Shown one piece after another: positions 2,252 to 36,791 of a stretch of DNA of 36,791 nt (position 1 is its first letter; each line of letters starts with the position of its first letter). A program made the position numbers and the translations under genes. This stretch comes from a virus. The stretch spans positions 1 through 36,791 of IMG/VR virus record IMGVR_UViG_3300042934_000459, one strand, 5' to 3'. The notes below the pieces were generated by a model. That model was not told the DNA's origin, ran no database searches, and saw only the letters and a program-made list of their open reading frames with translations.

Positions 2252-2293
2252 ATGACCACCGCCCCCACCGCCAGCACGGGAAACCGCCTGTGA
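2252..2293 (+). CDS. Possible leader peptide overlapping the integrase start
   Basis: A 13-codon frame, ATG 2252 to TGA 2293 (MTTAPTASTGNRL), is preceded by AGAAGGA at suitable spacing. Its TGA overlaps the integrase GTG start (GTGA-type overlap). The integrase start itself has no convincing ribosome-binding site. Translation of the leader could therefore deliver ribosomes to the integrase by termination-reinitiation. The frame is too short to judge by coding statistics, so this rests only on the site geometry. The rest of 1853-2251 holds the att site and no other gene that I can support. Confidence 0.4.
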   Translation: MTTAPTASTGNRL

Positions 2294-3516
2294 GGGGAAA
2301 GGGCGAAGGCGCACTGTTCCGGGTGCCAGCCGATCGGACGCAGCCCCTCAAGTACTGGCAGGCGTACGTCGAACTCCCGAACCCGACAGGACTCGCAAAG
2401 GACCGCCGGCGGAAGACCATCCGGTCCCGCGACAAGACGACCCTGCTAACCCGGCTCGCTGAGGTGAAGGAAGACCTGCGCCGCAGCGGAGACCTTGCGA
2501 CGTCCTCACCTACGGTCGAGCAGTGGCTCGAGTACTGGCTCGACCACATCGCCATCCACGACGTCGCGCCCGGCACCCTCGCCGGCTACCGGTCCATGGT
2601 AAAGACGCACATCTCCCCGGGCCTCGGCGCGAAGACGAAGCTCGAAAAGCTGAACGCCGCCTCCATCCGGCGGATGCACGACCGCATGACCGGGTTGGGC
2701 CTGTCGTCCACCTACGCGCTCAACGCGCACCGGATCCTGTCGAGCGCCCTCACCGCGGCCATGCGGGAGGGGAAGATCCCGCGGAACCCGACACAACTCG
2801 TGAAGGCACCGCGCAAGGCAGCCGTGAAACTCGACGTCCTCACGCCCGAGGAGTCGCTGCAGCTGCTGCAGGTGTGCGCCGGCCGAGCAGACGGCACCCG
2901 GCGCGCGACGAGCCTCCTCACTGGGGCGCGCCGCGGCGAAGTCATCGGCCTCGAGCTCGACCGCGTCACCGACACCCTCGATCTGTCGTGGCAGCTGCGC
3001 CGCCTCCCGTGGGAACACGGCTGCGGCGGCGGGTGCGGGATGGTCAAGGGCGGATACTGCCCCGACCGGATCCTCCGCACACGCAGCGACTTCGAGTACC
3101 GCCGCATCGAAGGCGGCCTGTACTGGACCCGCCCGAAGTCCCTCGCGGGCTGGCGCATCATCCCACTCGTCGACCCCCTCCGTACGCTGCTCGAGCGGCA
3201 CATCAGCACCCTCGAACCCGGGCCCCACGGGCTCGTGTTCACGCGGGACGGCGGGCGCCCGATCGACCCCGACCAGGACACCGCCGAATGGGGCAATCTC
3301 ATGCGGTCCGTGTTCGGCGAGAACCGCAGCGTCCGCCTGCACGACCTCCGGCACACAGCGGTAGACCTGCTCTACCTTGCCGGCGTCCCGGAAGACATTC
3401 TCCAGGAGATCGTCGGACACTCCACAAGGTCCATGACCCGCGGTTACAAGACCAAGGGCAACCAGGACCGGATGCGCGGCGCGATGATGCAACTCACCGC
3501 TTACCTAGAGCAGTAG
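2290..3516 (+). CDS. int: Tyrosine integrase (site-specific recombinase)
   Basis: A 408-residue phage integrase. It has an N-terminal arm-binding-type region (1-65), a SAM-like core-binding domain (about 72-165) and a catalytic domain (180-400). Catalytic residues are Arg214 (TGARRGE), Lys283 region (RPKS), His351-x-x-Arg354-His355 (HDLRH), His377 and Tyr386. All are present. An insertion after the Arg motif holds Cys245, Cys249 and Cys257, the small Cys-rich loop seen in many actinophage integrases. It lies next to the tRNA-Phe att site with matching arm repeats, so it should integrate the phage at a host tRNA-Phe gene. The start GTG 2290 is probably coupled to the leader peptide. Confidence 0.93.
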   Translation: MRGKGEGALFRVPADRTQPLKYWQAYVELPNPTGLAKDRRRKTIRSRDKTTLLTRLAEVKEDLRRSGDLATSSPTVEQWLEYWLDHIAIHDVAPGTLAGYRSMVKTHISPGLGAKTKLEKLNAASIRRMHDRMTGLGLSSTYALNAHRILSSALTAAMREGKIPRNPTQLVKAPRKAAVKLDVLTPEESLQLLQVCAGRADGTRRATSLLTGARRGEVIGLELDRVTDTLDLSWQLRRLPWEHGCGGGCGMVKGGYCPDRILRTRSDFEYRRIEGGLYWTRPKSLAGWRIIPLVDPLRTLLERHISTLEPGPHGLVFTRDGGRPIDPDQDTAEWGNLMRSVFGENRSVRLHDLRHTAVDLLYLAGVPEDILQEIVGHSTRSMTRGYKTKGNQDRMRGAMMQLTAYLEQ

Positions 3517-27284: not shown

Positions 27285-28100
27285 TCAGGCGGCGTCGGAC
27301 ATGGCTTGGACGGCGGCTCGCATGGTTCCCCGGTCGAAGGCGACGTACCGCTGCGTTGTCCCCACTGAGGCGTGACCGAGCATCGCTTGGACGAGCAGGA
27401 TGTCCTGGGTGCGGGCGTAGAGCTTGGTCGCGAACATGTGCCGCAGCTGGTGGCAGGTGTAGACGCCGGGGAGTAGGTCTCGGACGAGGACGCCGACTGT
27501 GCGTGCTGCGAGGTGTCCCTGTTCGTCGCCGGGGAAGACGTAGCCGCGGGGCTTGTCTCCCAGTGCCGAGCCGAGGTCGTTCGGGACGGGCACCACACGG
27601 TCCTTGTTCCCCTTCCCGTGCACGACGAGAGTCCAGCCGTCCGGATCATGCATGAGGTCGTCCGTGTGGATCTGGGCGATCTCGGCTCGCCTGAGTCCGA
27701 CGTCGCCGGCGAGGCGCAGCATGATCTGTTCGCGGGCGTCGGCGCGGGCCAGGGCGGTGCGGTACACGGGCTCGGGGCAGGGCCGGGCGACTGCGGCCTG
27801 CATCCGCACTTTCGGGAGCGCCAGGGCGGGGTTCTCGTCGGTGTGCCCTTGCGCGATCGCCCACTCGTAGAACCGGACCAGCGTCGTGCGGCGTCCGCGC
27901 CGGGTGTCCTGTCCCCACGGCTGCTCGGCCGTGTACTCGAGCAGGTCGTCGGACGTGAGCTCGTATGGGCCGAGGTCTGTCCGTCTCGCGAGATGCTGCA
28001 GGTGGTACCGGCGAGCGGTCACGGTCGTCTCAGGCTTGCCGCCGGCTCTCTCGGTGCGGAGGAATCCGCGGATGGCGGTGTGCCACTCGTCGTTCAGCAC
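27285..28100 (-). CDS. Third tyrosine recombinase, XerD-like
   Basis: A 271-residue recombinase. N-terminal SAM-like domain (about 3-95) and catalytic domain with Arg137 (DVGLRRAE), Lys163/166 (HGKGNKDR), His217-x-x-Arg220-His221 (HQLRH), His243 (LGHASVGTTQRY) and Tyr252. All catalytic residues are present. GTG 28100 lies inside the previous gene's end. At this place, the end of the replication module and next to the packaging genes, a job in multimer resolution or at a second site is more likely than integration at tRNA-Phe. Confidence 0.87.
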   Translation of the reverse strand: MLNDEWHTAIRGFLRTERAGGKPETTVTARRYHLQHLARRTDLGPYELTSDDLLEYTAEQPWGQDTRRGRRTTLVRFYEWAIAQGHTDENPALALPKVRMQAAVARPCPEPVYRTALARADAREQIMLRLAGDVGLRRAEIAQIHTDDLMHDPDGWTLVVHGKGNKDRVVPVPNDLGSALGDKPRGYVFPGDEQGHLAARTVGVLVRDLLPGVYTCHQLRHMFATKLYARTQDILLVQAMLGHASVGTTQRYVAFDRGTMRAAVQAMSDAA

Positions 28101-28318
28101 TGGGGTGTCACGTCCTTCGGCTCGTCGATGTTCCTCTGGGGCCGGCCGCGCCTGCGCTGGCTGGTGATGTGCCAGGTGCCACAGAACGGGCACATGTAGG
28201 CGCGGCTCGGGGTGCGACCGGGGCGCTTCTTCCAGGCGTAGTGCCAGGACCACGCGATGATCGTCTTGATGGCTTCGTGGTGAGTGGCGTAGCGGGTCTT
28301 CCCCTCGTCGCAGCGCAT
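28094..28318 (-). CDS. Small zinc-finger protein
   Basis: A 74-residue basic protein starting at ATG 28318 (TGATG with the preceding stop). A helix (HHEAIKTIIAWSWHYAWKKR) is followed by MCPFCGTWHITSQRRRGRP, giving a Cys-x2-Cys with nearby His. A second Cys near the start (RCDEGK) and the last residue could complete a zinc site. Small CPFC-x2-WH proteins are common in actinophages. Probably binds nucleic acid. Function unknown. Confidence 0.65.
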   Translation of the reverse strand: MRCDEGKTRYATHHEAIKTIIAWSWHYAWKKRPGRTPSRAYMCPFCGTWHITSQRRRGRPQRNIDEPKDVTPQC

Positions 28319-30046: not shown

Positions 30047-30214
30047 CTAACTCCTGTTCTCCTGATTCGGGCTATGGGGGCCCCACCCGGCGTTGATGAG
30101 CGCCTGCACGCCGGACTGGACTCGGTGACCGACAAGACCTGCCTGGTCCGCCGCTTCCCAAGCGGCCTTGAACGTCTGAACTGCGGCATCGAAATCACGG
30201 ATGGATACGGTCAT
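30047..30214 (-). CDS. Hypothetical small helical protein
   Basis: A 55-residue protein (VSIRDFDAAVQTFKAAWEAA; GVQALINAGWGPHSP). Start ATG 30214 overlaps the methyltransferase stop as ATGA. Nothing else can be said from sequence. Confidence 0.55.
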   Translation of the reverse strand: MTVSIRDFDAAVQTFKAAWEAADQAGLVGHRVQSGVQALINAGWGPHSPNQENRS

Positions 30215-31536
30215 GCTGTTTGCTCCTCTCGGATAGCGGGTACGCCCGGGCGGGCGAGAAGAATGCGCAGCGCGGCGGCAGCCTGCTGCGGGACGACGCC
30301 GTTCCCGGCGGCCTTGAGCTGCTCGGCGCGGGTCAAACCGATCGCCATGTCGGTCACCCAGCCTGCGGGCCAGCCCATCATCCACTCGGGCAGCTCGGGG
30401 TTCAGGCGGGGCTTCCCACCCTTCCCGTCGTTGCGAACGGGCGAAGGAGCCGAGCGTCCGGTCCCGACCTCCCAGCGCTTCACCGCAGCCGCGTAGGGTC
30501 CCCAGTCGGTGCCGGGAACGACGACACCCTGTGGGCGTTCGTCGTCGGACCGTTCTCCGCCCATCGCGTACGCCATCTCGGTCGCCGACCCGCCCCGCGT
30601 GGCCCGTGGGGTGGGCATGAGGGTCACCGCGTCGGTCAGCGTTGTGCCGCTGTGATGCTCTGATCCTTCGCGCCGGCCGGAGGTGGCGTTTCTGGCGCCC
30701 TTCGCGTCAGTGACGACTGGGGTCGGCAGCAAGCGTCCGCCCGTGCGGATCAGGTCGTTCTCGGCGATGATGGCGAGATCCGTCACCACCTCCCGGCCCG
30801 GCTTCTTGCGGAGGTGATCCTCAGGGGTGTTCCCCGACGGTTGCGCGACAGGCGTCGGCAGCAGCGTCAGAGCGCGAGACTCACCGCCACTCCCGGCAGA
30901 AGTAGTTCGTTCGATCTGCTCCCGGATCGGCTCGCGTGCCCACCCGTTGCGTCCGCCACCTGGGGAGTCGGGAAGAGTGCGCTCGTTCGGCCAGGCGAGG
31001 ATGAAGAATCGGAATCGTCCGTGAGGGGCACCGATGTCTGCTGCTCGAAGGCCAGTCCACTCCGCATCGAACCCGAGACGGGAAAGGTCGGCGAGTACGG
31101 CATCGAGTGCCCGCAGATGATACTCATCGTCTCCGTCTCCCACACACCACGGGCAGGGTTCCACCTCGCTATCGGCTCGGGCACTGATCAGTCCTCTCAC
31201 GTTCTCGATGACGACCCAGTCCGGTCGGACCTCGTCGATGATGCGGGCGTACTCGGACCAGAGTCCGGAGCGGGTGCCGTCTTTCATGCCGCGGCGTGCG
31301 CCGGCGAGGGACACGTCCTGGCAGGGGAAACCGCCGGCGAGGATGTCGACCTTCGGGGCGTCGCGCAGCTGCGTCACGTCGCCGAAGTTGGGGACGTGCG
31401 GGTAGCGGTGCGCGAGCACCTTGGACGGTGCTGCGTCGAACTCGGCGAACCAAGCGGGTTCGGATCCGAAGACCTCGTCGACCGCCATTCCAAGGCCACC
31501 GACGCCGGCGAAGAGCTCACCACTGCGGAGGCTCAT
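30211..31536 (-). CDS. DNA (cytosine-5) methyltransferase
   Basis: A 441-residue C5-methyltransferase. Motif I is ELFAGVGGLGMA (SAM binding), motif IV GGFPCQDVSLAG with nucleophile Cys72, motif VI IENVRG (Glu111), motif VIII-like GAPHGRFRFFIL, and motif X AGNGVVPQQAAA at the end. The target-recognition region (about 195-380) is long and has repeated LLPTP/LMPTP motifs. It methylates a specific sequence in phage DNA, most likely to evade host restriction. No endonuclease partner is adjacent. Start ATG 31536 overlaps the upstream stop as ATGA. Confidence 0.9.
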   Translation of the reverse strand: MSLRSGELFAGVGGLGMAVDEVFGSEPAWFAEFDAAPSKVLAHRYPHVPNFGDVTQLRDAPKVDILAGGFPCQDVSLAGARRGMKDGTRSGLWSEYARIIDEVRPDWVVIENVRGLISARADSEVEPCPWCVGDGDDEYHLRALDAVLADLSRLGFDAEWTGLRAADIGAPHGRFRFFILAWPNERTLPDSPGGGRNGWAREPIREQIERTTSAGSGGESRALTLLPTPVAQPSGNTPEDHLRKKPGREVVTDLAIIAENDLIRTGGRLLPTPVVTDAKGARNATSGRREGSEHHSGTTLTDAVTLMPTPRATRGGSATEMAYAMGGERSDDERPQGVVVPGTDWGPYAAAVKRWEVGTGRSAPSPVRNDGKGGKPRLNPELPEWMMGWPAGWVTDMAIGLTRAEQLKAAGNGVVPQQAAAALRILLARPGVPAIREEQTA

Positions 31537-31706
31537 GGCGTAGTCCCATCCTGTTGTTCCGGGGTATGAGCGTCCGTGCACCGCGGGCGCTCGTAGTGCT
31601 CGACGATCCGGGCGACGTCCTCGTAGATGCCTCCGACCGAGGCCAGTGAGCGGACCTTGTTGTCGAGCTCAGCGTTGGTGAGGCGGGCGCCCGCAGTACC
31701 GGTCAT
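31533..31706 (-). CDS. Small hypothetical protein
   Basis: A 57-residue protein; ATG 31706 overlaps the upstream stop as ATGA. A helix pair (LTNAELDNKVRSLASVGGIY, EDVARIVEHYERP) is followed by a polar tail. Size and coupling support a real gene. Function unknown. Confidence 0.55.
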   Translation of the reverse strand: MTGTAGARLTNAELDNKVRSLASVGGIYEDVARIVEHYERPRCTDAHTPEQQDGTTP

Positions 31707-32498: not shown

Positions 32499-33002
32499 TC
32501 AGAACGGGGTGTCGTCTCCATAGGTCCCGCCTCCGTTCCAGGTGTCGTTCGCGCTCGTGCTCGCGGTGGCGCCCGGGGTGGCCCAGGGCTCGTCCGCGGT
32601 GGTCTGAGCCGTGGGAGCGGACGTTCCACCGGTGCCGCCGGCGGCGCGGGTGACCTGCGCGGTGGCGTAGCGGAGGCTCGGGCCGATCTCGTCGACCTCG
32701 AGCTCGATGGCAGTCCGGTTCTGCCCTTCGCGGTCCTGGTAGGTGCGCTGCTTGAGGCGACCGGTCGCGATGACGCGGGACCCCTTCGTCAGCGACCCGG
32801 CCACGTGCTCGGCGAACTCACGCCACACGGACGCCCGGAGGAAGAGAGCGTCGCCATCCTTGTACTCCCCGGAGGCCTTGTCGAAGTTCCGCGGGGTTGA
32901 CGCGATGGTGAAGTTCGCGACGGGCAGTCCGTTCTGCGTGTACCGCAACTCGGGGTCGGCCGTGAGGTTCCCCACGACGGTGATGATCGTTTCGCCAGCC
33001 AT
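32499..33002 (-). CDS. ssb: Single-stranded DNA-binding protein
   Basis: A 167-residue SSB. The OB fold spans 1-112 ([40 protein letters not shown]). A disordered Gly/Thr/Ala linker follows, and an acidic tip DDTPF ends it, the usual partner-binding end of bacterial SSBs. It coats ssDNA during replication and RecT-mediated annealing. Confidence 0.93.
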
Positions 33003-33004
33003 AG

Positions 33005-33136
33005 TCAGGCCGCCTTTCGTTTGACGGGTCGGTGGTCGGGTCGCTCGTTCTCGAGCGTCCGCCGGTAGGAGGGTTGCTTCACGTATCGCTGGCAGCAGCG
33101 GTCGAGGAACTCGGCGAAGGCCATGGCCGGAGTCAT
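33005..33136 (-). CDS. Small basic hypothetical protein
   Basis: A 43-residue protein ([35 protein letters not shown]) between ssb and the initiator gene; ATG 33136 overlaps the initiator stop as ATGA. The basic end and a Cys-Cys pair stand out. No function assigned. Confidence 0.5.
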
Positions 33137-33825
33137 GCCGCCTCGCTTTCGTTCTCGCACCGATGGCACGGCAGCGGATACCCGGAATGGATGTCGCACA
33201 TGCCAGAGGTGTCAGTGATGCGAGCGGGGATCGGGGTCGTCTTCTTCGGCTGGGTGGCTTCCCAGTCCTGCCGCGCCTTCTTGCACGCTGCGCAGGGGGA
33301 GTCGGTGCCGTCCGGGTGTCTTCGGCATGTGGGGGTGGGGGGCGACGTTTCGTCGCGTGACCCCCCCTGTTCCTCTGTTCCTCTGTTCCCCTGTTCCCCT
33401 GTTACAGGCGCGAGGGTTCGCGAGGCTTCGCGAGGACTCCCGTTCGACTCGCGAATGACCGAGTCCTTGTAGTTCATAGTCCCGTCTGGCCTGGGGTTTC
33501 TTCCGGGCTGAGGCTTATCGACTCGCTGCACGGTCTCCCAGAAGGAGATGAAGAGCAGCCGCTTGCCGTTCGCGCCGTATCGCCACATCAATCCGGTCGT
33601 TTCGAGCTCGGAAATCGCTTCGGACACCCTCGCGAGGGTTCGCGAGGGCTCGCGAATGAGGTCGTGGAGGAAGCAGTCGCCGACGATGACGTTGACGTCG
33701 TCCTCACCCACGCCGTTGTCATCGACGTAGGACTCGAGCGCTTTCAGCACGAGCCGCGCGTCCCAGGAGACCGACGCGATGCGCTTCGATCGCCAGAACT
33801 CCGGCTTCGTTCCTCGAATACGCAT
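33133..33825 (-). CDS. Replication initiator-like winged-helix protein
   Basis: A 230-residue protein. Residues 1-100 match the actinophage and prophage initiator type ([38 protein letters not shown]; the winged-helix part [20 protein letters not shown]). Residues 101-165 are Pro/Arg/Glu-rich. The end has two Cys clusters (CRRHPDG ... [18 protein letters not shown]), likely zinc sites. The gene holds two arrays of TCGCGAG repeats, as lambda O holds its origin iterons, so it probably binds its own gene as origin. ATG 33825 shares one base with the HNH stop. Confidence 0.75.
33367..33406. repeat. 8-bp tandem repeat (CTGTTCCY), 4.5 copies
   Basis: Units at 33367, 33375, 33383, 33391 and a partial at 33399: CTGTTCCT twice, CTGTTCCC twice, CTGTTACA. 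The 8-bp period is not a multiple of three, so DNA structure rather than protein repetition explains it. The strands are strongly pyrimidine and purine biased. It lies right beside iteron array A. Confidence 0.8.
33408..33455. repeat. Iteron array A: TCGCGAG every 10 bp
   Basis: TCGCGAG at 33418-33424 and 33428-33434, with a degenerate GCGCGAG at 33408-33414 exactly 10 bp earlier, and TCGCGAA at 33449-33455. The 10-bp phase puts copies on one helix face. Inside the initiator gene. Confidence 0.7.
33630..33656. repeat. Iteron array B: TCGCGAG every 10 bp
   Basis: TCGCGAG at 33630-33636 and 33640-33646 and TCGCGAA at 33650-33656, exactly 10 bp apart, about 200 bp from array A in the same gene. 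Both arrays end TCGCGAATGA. On the coding strand both give the peptide SRTLA, so the DNA may have been duplicated. Confidence 0.75.
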
Positions 33826-34552: not shown

Positions 34553-34854
34553 GCGTCCACCAGCTTCCACAGCTGCCGGCGGCGGGAGTCTCCGGGGCGC
34601 CGGACGAGCTCGGCGACGAACGTCAGACCCTCTTCCTTCATCTCGGCAGGCGCGGACCTGATGCGCGACTCCGAGTGCTTCCACCCGTACTGGAAGATCG
34701 CGGCCTGCTCGAGTTCCTTCGCGGTCATGCCGTCCGGGTGGTCGCGGAGGATGCGTTCCACGAGACGGTGTGAGGGCCACAGCAGATGCGATGCCGCGTC
34801 GGCCGCTTCGTGGGAGGTGACCGGGTCGGAGTTTCTGGCGTGTGCTTCGCTCAT
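34549..34854 (-). CDS. Winged-helix-like small protein
   Basis: A 101-residue protein: SDPVTSHEAADAASHLLWPS, a helix pair with LVERILRDHPDGMTAKELEQ (helix-turn-helix-like) and a basic wing (RPGDSRRRQLWKLVDA). The fold suggests DNA binding. Similar proteins next to WhiB and RecT in actinophages are unassigned. ATGA overlap with RecT. Confidence 0.65.
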   Translation of the reverse strand: MSEAHARNSDPVTSHEAADAASHLLWPSHRLVERILRDHPDGMTAKELEQAAIFQYGWKHSESRIRSAPAEMKEEGLTFVAELVRRPGDSRRRQLWKLVDA

Positions 34855-35630
34855 GACTGGGCCCCCGTGTTCTCCTCGACCGTGATCGTCTCCGGCTCGT
34901 CGATGCGGGTGACCTGCACCTCGTCGACTCCGCGGAGGGTCTGCACCTTCGCTTCGTCGGCCTCGAGCGCGCGCCCCAGATCCGTCGACTTCGGCAAGAA
35001 CTTCGCGAGTGCCCGGACGGCGGTCTTCTTGACCATCTCGTCCTCGTTCGTCTTCCACGGCGTCGACTGCCAGTACGACGGGCGCCGATCGAGAACCTGG
35101 GTGCGGGTGAGGTAGACCCACGTCGTCCCGCCGGCGCGCATCTTCGCGGTGGCGACGACGCCGATCCAGTCGCGGGTTTCCTCGAAGTCCTGCGGGACCC
35201 AGTCGTAGAACATGCCTCGCTCAGCGTTCGCGCCGTACGAGAACTGGTCGCCCTTCCGAACGAGGAACGCCTGCACGTTCGACACGAACTCGGAGCGCAA
35301 CGCGAGCTTGATGAAGCCCTGGTATCCGATGATCGGCAGGCAGATCTGACGCCCGCGCTCCTTGCGCGGGGTGAGGTAGAACTCTCCGAGCCCGGAACCG
35401 ATCTCGAGGCGCAGCTGAGCGGCGAGCATCACGCCGCCGAGCAGGGTCTTCGGGTCCGCGGCCATCAGGTCCGGGGACTTTCCGATCTCGGAAAGGATCG
35501 CTCTGACGAACGCATCCGAGTTCATCGCGCCGCCGAGCTGCCGCTCGATCGCCGGCATCTGGGCTTCGACGAGTTCCTTCATCGTCGGGTCCTTCTTCGC
35601 GGCGACGGCCGCTTGAGTGAGGTCGCTCAT
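34851..35630 (-). CDS. recT: RecT-like single-strand annealing protein
   Basis: A 259-residue RecT. The N-terminal helix (TMKELVEAQMPAIERQLGGA), LLGGVMLAAQLRLEIGSGLG, the core GRQICLPIIGYQGFIKLALR and the C-terminal KKTAVRALAKFLPKSTDLG all match the family. It anneals ssDNA and works with the adjacent exonuclease in recombination and replication of concatemers. Confidence 0.92.
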   Translation of the reverse strand: MSDLTQAAVAAKKDPTMKELVEAQMPAIERQLGGAMNSDAFVRAILSEIGKSPDLMAADPKTLLGGVMLAAQLRLEIGSGLGEFYLTPRKERGRQICLPIIGYQGFIKLALRSEFVSNVQAFLVRKGDQFSYGANAERGMFYDWVPQDFEETRDWIGVVATAKMRAGGTTWVYLTRTQVLDRRPSYWQSTPWKTNEDEMVKKTAVRALAKFLPKSTDLGRALEADEAKVQTLRGVDEVQVTRIDEPETITVEENTGAQS

Positions 35631-36559
35631 GAGTTCTCCTTGGTCTTGGTGCGGCGAAGCACACGGAACGGGGCGCCAACGGTTGTGAAAGCGGCGAGGA
35701 GGTCGGGGTGCTCGGCGGCGAACCCGGCCTTGTCGAACCCGACGCGCCCCTTCTGGGAGCGCCAGGTGGCGACCTTCCGGCCCCGGTGGAGGAGGGTGTC
35801 GGCCGGCCCGACGTACTGGGCGAGGGCGACCTTCTTCGCGTCCCGCTCTTCGGTCATCGACTGGATGTCGCTATTAAGGACCGTGATCTCTTCGAGCAGG
35901 TCGAATGCGGTATCCGAGAGGTCGACTGGTCTCTGGTCGGTGAGGACCTCGTTCACCTCACGCATGGTGGACGGATCCGGCGCGACGCCGGCGAGGACGT
36001 TGCCGTGCCAGAACGCGTGCAGCTGCGGGATCAGGTACTCGTCGATGAACCGGTCGTCGCGGGCTTCCCAGAAGTACCGGAACTCCCGCCCGCCGATCCA
36101 GACGACGACGAGCTCTCTCGGGTCGCCAGAGACGGCCATCTCCGCCTGAACCTGAACACGGATGTCGGTCGGGATTCCGTCGTCCCAGTGGTGGCCGGTG
36201 TAGTGATGCGCGGTCTTCATCTGGATCTTGAGGCCGCTCGTGGTGCACCGGTCGAACGTGGCGTGCAGGAACGGGTGCTCGACGGATCTCGCCATGAACC
36301 CAGGGAGGAGCGTCAGCCCCAGGCCGGAGAAGTCCTCCACCCAGGCGTGCATGATCGGCTCGGACTGGTGTCCGATCCATGCGAGCAGCGGGTCGAACGC
36401 GCGGTCGATGCCGTGTTTCTGTCGGTAGATGTCCAGGGCCGTGTTCCCGTACGAGGACATCCCCATGACGGCGGCGGCTTCGGAAGCGCCGACGCTGCGA
36501 CGACGTTCCTCTTCCCACTCGAGGGTGTCGGGCGTGACTTCGACGATGGTGAAGGTCAT
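35627..36559 (-). CDS. YqaJ-like viral recombinase exonuclease
   Basis: A 310-residue protein of the YqaJ/lambda-exonuclease type: RSVGASEAAAVMGMSSYGNT at the start, ARSVEHPFLHATFDRCTTSG with Asp103, and KIQMKTAHHY with Lys115. The usual Glu of the D-(D/E)xK motif is Gln113. The C-terminal half is helical and charged. Partner gene recT follows with ATGA overlap, so it should make 3' single strands for RecT. Catalysis with Gln113 needs checking. Confidence 0.85.
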   Translation of the reverse strand: MTFTIVEVTPDTLEWEEERRRSVGASEAAAVMGMSSYGNTALDIYRQKHGIDRAFDPLLAWIGHQSEPIMHAWVEDFSGLGLTLLPGFMARSVEHPFLHATFDRCTTSGLKIQMKTAHHYTGHHWDDGIPTDIRVQVQAEMAVSGDPRELVVVWIGGREFRYFWEARDDRFIDEYLIPQLHAFWHGNVLAGVAPDPSTMREVNEVLTDQRPVDLSDTAFDLLEEITVLNSDIQSMTEERDAKKVALAQYVGPADTLLHRGRKVATWRSQKGRVGFDKAGFAAEHPDLLAAFTTVGAPFRVLRRTKTKENS

Positions 36560-36720
36560 CTCAGCGCGTCCGTCCCGGCGGTGGCCCAGTGGATGATGAG
36601 CCCGAGAACGACGAACGTGATGCCGATGAAGCCGACGACGGTCCACCCGGACTCGGTGAGCGCGGCGCCCATGAGAAGAACCGCGCCGAAGATCAGCAGG
36701 AACAGGGCCATGGAGTTCAC
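36556..36720 (-). CDS. Small two-TM membrane protein
   Basis: A 54-residue protein, GTG 36720 (overlapping the previous stop as GTGA) to TGA 36558-36556, which overlaps the exonuclease ATG as ATGA. Two hydrophobic segments: about 4-20 (ALFLLIFGAVLLM) and 26-43 (WTVVGFIGITFVVLGLII), ending IHWATAGTDALR. Membrane microproteins of this size are common at the start of actinophage early operons. Function unknown. Confidence 0.65.
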   Translation of the reverse strand: MNSMALFLLIFGAVLLMGAALTESGWTVVGFIGITFVVLGLIIHWATAGTDALR

Positions 36721-36791
36721 CGGGCACCTGCTTTCGGTGCGCCGGCCAGTTCCATGACGACGATGAACAGGCCGATGAGGGCGGCGATGAC
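36717..36791 (-). CDS. C-terminus of a small membrane protein (partial)
   Basis: The frame ends at TGA 36719-36717 and its start is outside the window. The visible 24 residues begin with VIAALIGLFIVVMELAG, a membrane segment, then a basic tail. It belongs to the same leftward early operon, upstream of the 36556 gene. It is not the gene cut at position 1, because the frames do not join. Confidence 0.5.
   Translation of the reverse strand, partial: VIAALIGLFIVVMELAGAPKAGAR

Follow-up and report, generated by a model that had tools for sequence, protein, structure and literature searches.

The window analysed here, a prophage-like virus record of 36,791 nucleotides with integrase, tail, capsid and terminase genes, carries on its minus strand a gene (33825..33133; P0001) that encodes a 230 aa product and lies within a replication module. 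The same module comprises genes for a single-strand DNA-binding protein (32499..33002, minus strand; phrog_44, E=7e-46), a RecT-like annealing protein (34851..35630, minus strand) and a RecE-like exonuclease (within 35627-36727), and WhiB and HNH genes are also found near P0001. A gene for a DNA (probably cytosine) methyltransferase (30211-31581) adjoins the module, and the record contains two distinct integrase-family genes (2290-3516 and 27285-28253). The window ORFs scanned include no recognisable DnaB-type helicase or loader, so that the helicase of the host is presumably used. GC skew across the window shows no turning point at the initiator gene.

An earlier note on this DNA took P0001 for a replication initiator, an assignment borne out by PHROG profiles, since phrog_2149 (E=1.1e-68, residues 1-197) and phrog_1408 (8.7e-43) are both annotated as replication initiation protein. 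The phrog_2149 match spans the N-terminal domain and the linker and thereby places the protein in the PHROG 2149/1408 family. Pfam profiles yielded nothing usable, the sole listed match being GATA (E=0.82); NCBIfam profiles gave no usable family, and a sequence search of the PDB returned no solved relative. P0001 consists of a winged-helix N-terminal domain (residues 1-120), a disordered linker (approximately 124-160) and, at the C-terminus, a short Cys/His-rich part. AlphaFold2 modelled the winged helix with confidence (pLDDT mostly above 90), placing helices at residues 21-33, 44-51, 53-58 and 60-76 and a wing at 80-93, and rendered the linker disordered. With other winged helices as a model, helix 60-76 is the predicted recognition helix. 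A fold search of the PDB produced generic winged-helix matches alone (best E 0.027, Z below 8), among them the plasmid-initiator N-terminal domains 4pql, 4pt7, 4pta and 5kbj, whose scores (Z 6.0-7.0) were not above those of unrelated winged helices; lambda O does not appear in the matches listed, which bears on the comparison in neither direction.

Repeat arrays within the initiator gene

The initiator gene contains two arrays of the palindrome TCGCGA and a tandem 8-bp repeat, all described here on the minus strand by window position and, where useful, by gene coordinate (1 is the A of the ATG; window position equals 33826 minus the gene coordinate). Array B (33630..33655) has units at 33630, 33640 and 33650, with starts at gene coordinates 171, 181 and 191; it codes for residues 57-66, and its codons reach into the first half of the predicted recognition helix. 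Beyond a spacer (33455..33629), array A (33408..33454) has units at 33418, 33428 and 33449 (gene coordinates 372, 393 and 403), a degenerate unit near 33439 and a half-site GCGCGA at 33408-33413 (gene coordinate 413) that adjoins the 8-mers, and it codes for the disordered linker. The 8-bp repeat (33364..33405; from about gene coordinate 421) reads GGGGAACA/GAGGAACA on the coding strand and CTGTTCCC on the plus strand, where it is a pyrimidine repeat (33364-33403); TRF reports a period of 8, 5.0 copies and 93% matches.

These positions, including that of the degenerate GCGCGA, agree with those of the earlier note. Its claim that the units are spaced by one helical turn holds for array B, which has a 10-bp pitch, but not for array A, where the pitch is 10 and then 21 bp; across the family it is 10 or 11 bp. 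The SRTLA repeat that it saw in the protein is real (EPSRTLARV and EASRTLAPV), and at the DNA level array A of the window is an in-frame duplicate of array B with a shift of 222 bp.

Over the whole window TCGCGA occurs 41 times against 36 expected, which is no genome-wide enrichment, and the six sites in the gene are the only ones spaced at 10, 20 or 21 bp. We used as a null model the shuffling of synonymous codons within the gene, which preserves the protein and its codon usage. Shuffled genes had a mean of 0.79 TCGCGA, with six or more in 1 of 20,000; the five phased pairs observed in the window gene were reached in none of 20,000 shuffles, and its four copies of GGAACAG in 9 of 20,000. A chance origin of the repeats is ruled out by these shuffles.

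Conservation of the arrays among homologues

From IMG/VR and GTDB genomes we collected 104 non-redundant homologous genes by protein patterns only, so that the DNA motif did not bias their choice. TCGCGA occurs 522 times in this set, compared with 82 expected from synonymous shuffling, and GGAACAG 409 times compared with 38. Ranked by over-representation, TCGCGA comes first of the 64 palindromic hexamers (z about 49), followed by TCATGA (z 4.1). The earlier note had held that a lack of TCGCGA enrichment in relatives would speak against an origin here, and the outcome was the opposite, with at least two TCGCGA in each array in 80 of the 104 homologues. The 8-bp repeat is conserved as well as the TCGCGA arrays are (at least three 8-mers in 100/104), and the arrangement, in which GGGGAACA-type repeats come after array A, is family-wide. 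Arrays fall into two main registers (171/181/191 and 159/170/180/191), and the spacing between TCGCGA units is 11 bp in 139 instances and 10 bp in 137 (best period about 10.6), while the 8-mers are spaced at 8 bp (296 instances). The gap that separates the final complete TCGCGA from the 8-mers clusters at 18-19 bp or is approximately one helical turn longer, and the last turn before the 8-mers often holds a degenerate TCGCGC.

The in-frame peptide repeat in the window and the strong conservation of EQGNRG could indicate that the DNA repeats arise secondarily from functional repeats in the protein. However, TCGCGA units occupy all three reading frames (RE, SR and LAR), synonymous shuffling fails to yield them, and they fall partly in a linker predicted to be disordered. 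Variants of the 8-mers, moreover, change the peptide (EKGRRGEGEK, EQGNKGTREQ, GTGNREQGTG) and keep the purine pattern of the DNA. An origin in protein repeats is thus largely refuted and, in our judgement, extremely improbable. The converse suggestion of the earlier note, that the DNA repeats shaped the coding sequence, is strongly supported by the three frames, the excess over synonymous shuffles and the concerted motif switches described below.

The association with the initiator family also holds when the search is by DNA motif alone. A search of 2.9 million viral contigs of IMG/VR for four exact 8-mers yielded 71 stretches; 70 had a readable frame, 69 of them in the initiator family, and the remaining one was cut at the sequence end, immediately downstream of TCGCGA units. 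Triplets of TCGCGA spaced at 10 bp were located in the initiator family in 106 of 119 cases among the matches listed, and one of the 13 listed matches outside it (L148) is apparently a truncated relative. The phased TCGCGA triples of L170, L176, L221 and L251 (for example TCGCGACAACTCGCGACAGATCGCGACAAA) lie outside the family and possibly belong to other initiators with similar arrays. The initiator gene itself is present in 315 phage records, including those of named M. smegmatis phages such as Che8 and BigNuz. On these comparative grounds, the arrays and the 8-mer tract are evidently under selection at the DNA level that is linked to the replication initiator family.

Alternatively, the arrays could be operators by which the initiator, or some other regulator of the phage, controls its own expression from within the gene, the origin being located elsewhere. 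Palindrome-binding repressors are common among winged-helix proteins, and repressors are numerous among the PDB folds closest to P0001. Operators are usually situated near promoters, however, and not 150-450 nt into a gene, array A is tied to 8-mers in 100 of the 104 genes, as is typical of origins, and the protein family is that of a replication initiator. We therefore consider operators unlikely.

Concerted motif switches and codon 65

Sixteen of the 104 homologues contain at most one TCGCGA in their array region, and many of these carry a substitute phased motif in both arrays. The substitutes are TCACTGA/TCAGTGA/TCATGA (L116, L117, L122, L127, L134, L136, L139 and others), TCCGGA-like motifs (L069, L074), TACGGA/TACGTA (L083, L089, L129) and TCAAGA/TCTTGA (L121); TCASTGA alone is found 32 times in the 16 TCGCGA-poor genes, compared with 2.9 expected. 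Within a gene, arrays A and B have on average 12.4 hexamers in common, whereas those of different genes have 8.0, and array A shares 2.2-3.0 with other regions of its own gene. In the 16 TCGCGA-poor genes the corresponding values are 12.8 and 5.4, a difference reached in 0 of 20,000 permutations that ignore kinship. Since the two arrays encode different parts of the protein, array A the linker predicted to be disordered and array B a piece of the DNA-binding domain, protein constraint poorly explains the match between them. A common DNA-binding partner would explain it, and so the arrays appear to follow one DNA-binding specificity and not the protein sequence.

In the iteron at 33630, the two bases at the centre double as the first two positions of codon 65, which lies in the predicted recognition helix. 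Codon 65 varies with the motif because the same bases encode both, being GCG (Ala) in TC-GC-GA, ATG (Met) in TC-AT-GA, AAG (Lys) in TC-AA-GA and CGG (Arg) in TA-CG-GA; the rule is broken in L120, L133 and L138, which have Glu at this position and keep TCGCGA elsewhere. We hypothesise that the middle of the iteron is recognised by residue 65. It is possible, and we suggest this tentatively, that the specificity of the initiator is self-encoded, such that one mutation alters the reader together with one copy of its target. If true, this would explain the repeated motif switching in the family, with array A following in step.

A candidate origin inside the initiator gene

The two arrays are approximately 200 bp apart and lie near one helical face in most homologues. 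Inter-array distances are best fitted by a period of 10.65 bp (R=0.85, phase near zero), and R is 0.67 (p about 0.005) when each of the 12 spacer-length classes is given one vote; L133 and L138 do not follow the phasing. Predicted duplex stability in the averaged gene is lowest at the 8-mer tract (-1.42 kcal/mol per step, compared with about -1.5 to -1.6), which is 87% purine on the coding strand and has a mean GC content of 54-58%. Such a tract is compatible with an unwinding element in genomes rich in GC, although it is only mildly unstable, unlike the classic AT-rich element. A G-quadruplex role for the 8-mers was rejected, as the motif fits only 27 of 102 arrays.

We propose, with a probability of about 0.8, that the arrays and the 8-mers form a phage replication origin inside its own initiator gene. 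What the sequence itself shows is the arrays and their phasing, selection on the DNA, the motif switches in concert, the weak predicted duplex of the 8-mers and the identity of the initiator family, and from these features iteron binding, 8-mer unwinding, helicase loading and origin activity are inferred. The N-terminal winged helix would bind the phased TCGCGA iterons of array B (33630-33655) and array A (33408-33454), and with the arrays near one face of the DNA, the bound initiators could form a compact, possibly looped nucleoprotein complex. This complex would then open the neighbouring purine-rich tract (33364-33405), which we propose to be an unwinding or ssDNA-loading element. The exposed strand would be held at the 8-mers, and host DnaB helicase would be loaded via a phage or host loader. 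In Che8, the gene after the homologue (gp78) is annotated as a helicase loader. The occurrence of the same arrangement on episomal plasmids and the SSB, RecT and RecE neighbours of the initiator gene also favour an origin. Points against it are the mild instability of the 8-mer tract, the absence of a GC-skew turn at the gene, the exceptions to inter-array phasing, a Legionella relative described below and the lack of a recognised helicase or loader gene among the window ORFs scanned.

By analogy, the candidate origin is best read as working like those of lambda O, SPP1 gene 38 and pSK41 rep. In lambda, iterons and a neighbouring melting region lie midway along the initiator gene (PMC7466680), an arrangement resembling that of the window with its adjoining candidate melting region. 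However, ori-lambda has one array and an AT-rich tract, whereas here two arrays, made of 6-bp palindromes with a pitch of 10-11 bp, accompany a purine 8-bp repeat and one array lies within codons of the DNA-binding domain; the Pfam profile of the lambda O family (Phage_rep_O) does not match P0001. In SPP1, gp38 binds direct repeats in its own gene beside a DUE (oriL), after which a loader delivers the helicase (PMC6316719), but this DUE is AT-rich and the phage encodes its own loader and helicase. The N-terminal domain of the RepA_N initiator of pSK41 binds Rep boxes in the centre of the rep gene (PMC5703833), which form one central set in contrast to the two phased arrays described here, and the Pfam RepA_N profile found no match in P0001. 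The closest work found on actinophages concerns the cluster A mycobacteriophage RepA prophages Miko and Jeeves, which are presumed to have a cis-acting ori in or beside repA, similar to the window, but for which the authors report no repeated motifs (PMC7157519).

What appears unusual in the present family is the array within the codons of the predicted recognition helix, the helical phasing over approximately 200 bp and the concerted switching of motifs. We found no description of a TCGCGA/8-mer origin in actinophages in the open-access literature covered by the search. Very many actinobacteriophages have been sequenced and few of their origins have been mapped. The arrays provide a precise and testable origin candidate for phages with mostly unmapped origins, and for plasmids. 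They also offer a natural series of initiator/target pairs with shared bases, which is useful for studying the evolution of initiator specificity and replicon compatibility, with a possible use in compatible actinobacterial vectors.

Exchange of the cassette between phages and plasmids

DNA similarity to Gordonia phages begins at the start codon and stops precisely where the 8-mer tract ends, at 33364-33365, and the C-terminal parts encoded past it are unrelated between relatives. We conclude from this that the DNA-binding domain and the candidate origin behave as one exchangeable cassette. The C-terminal type changes immediately after the 8-mer tract (33133-33364 in the window), being Cys/His-rich in the window protein and L004 and of a W..WPKK..K type in L005, L006 and others. 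Directly beyond the tract, at 33337-33366, lies a long inverted repeat (GGGGGG-CGACG-TTT-CGTCG-...-CCCCCC); a similar one is found in L004, which has its C-terminal part in common with the window protein, and the feature is not general in the family.

The coincidence of the similarity boundary with the tract end, and the unrelated C-termini, are also what would be expected if the conserved block were itself a recombination boundary, a short homology for swapping C-terminal domains and downstream genes. Such a boundary leaves unexplained the helical phasing, the presence of two arrays and the motif switches shared by A and B, which makes it a very unlikely primary explanation, and it may instead be a consequence of an embedded origin.

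The cassette is also carried by plasmids, namely the B. breve megaplasmid pMP7017 (seven TCGCGA and five tandem 8-mers) and a Rhodococcus plasmid. With arrays and 8-mers present, the genes at L325 3001-4062 (pMP7017) and L326 3001-3624, annotated as hypothetical protein, belong fully to the family and are thus candidate replication initiators of their plasmids. That some relatives are plasmids would suit a centromere-like partition site (parS) of an episomal prophage, and in RedRock-type parS loci an 8-bp motif is repeated directly eight times (PMC7157519). However, neither ParA nor ParB, whose linked genes mark a ParABS system, was found among the neighbouring ORFs scanned, integrases are present and the arrays in relatives are tied to the initiator gene; a partition site accordingly seems most improbable.

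Distant relatives in Corynebacterium, Enterobacter and Azospirillum have TCACTGA or TCGCCGA units at 11 bp followed by purine-rich repeats, and purine repeats beside an 11-bp array are thereby present in distant proteobacterial relatives too; a relative in Legionella has no clear array. An actinophage-type initiator with TCGCGA arrays is further encoded on a Rugamonas rubra contig (L133) of a betaproteobacterial assembly, which reflects either a host jump or contamination.
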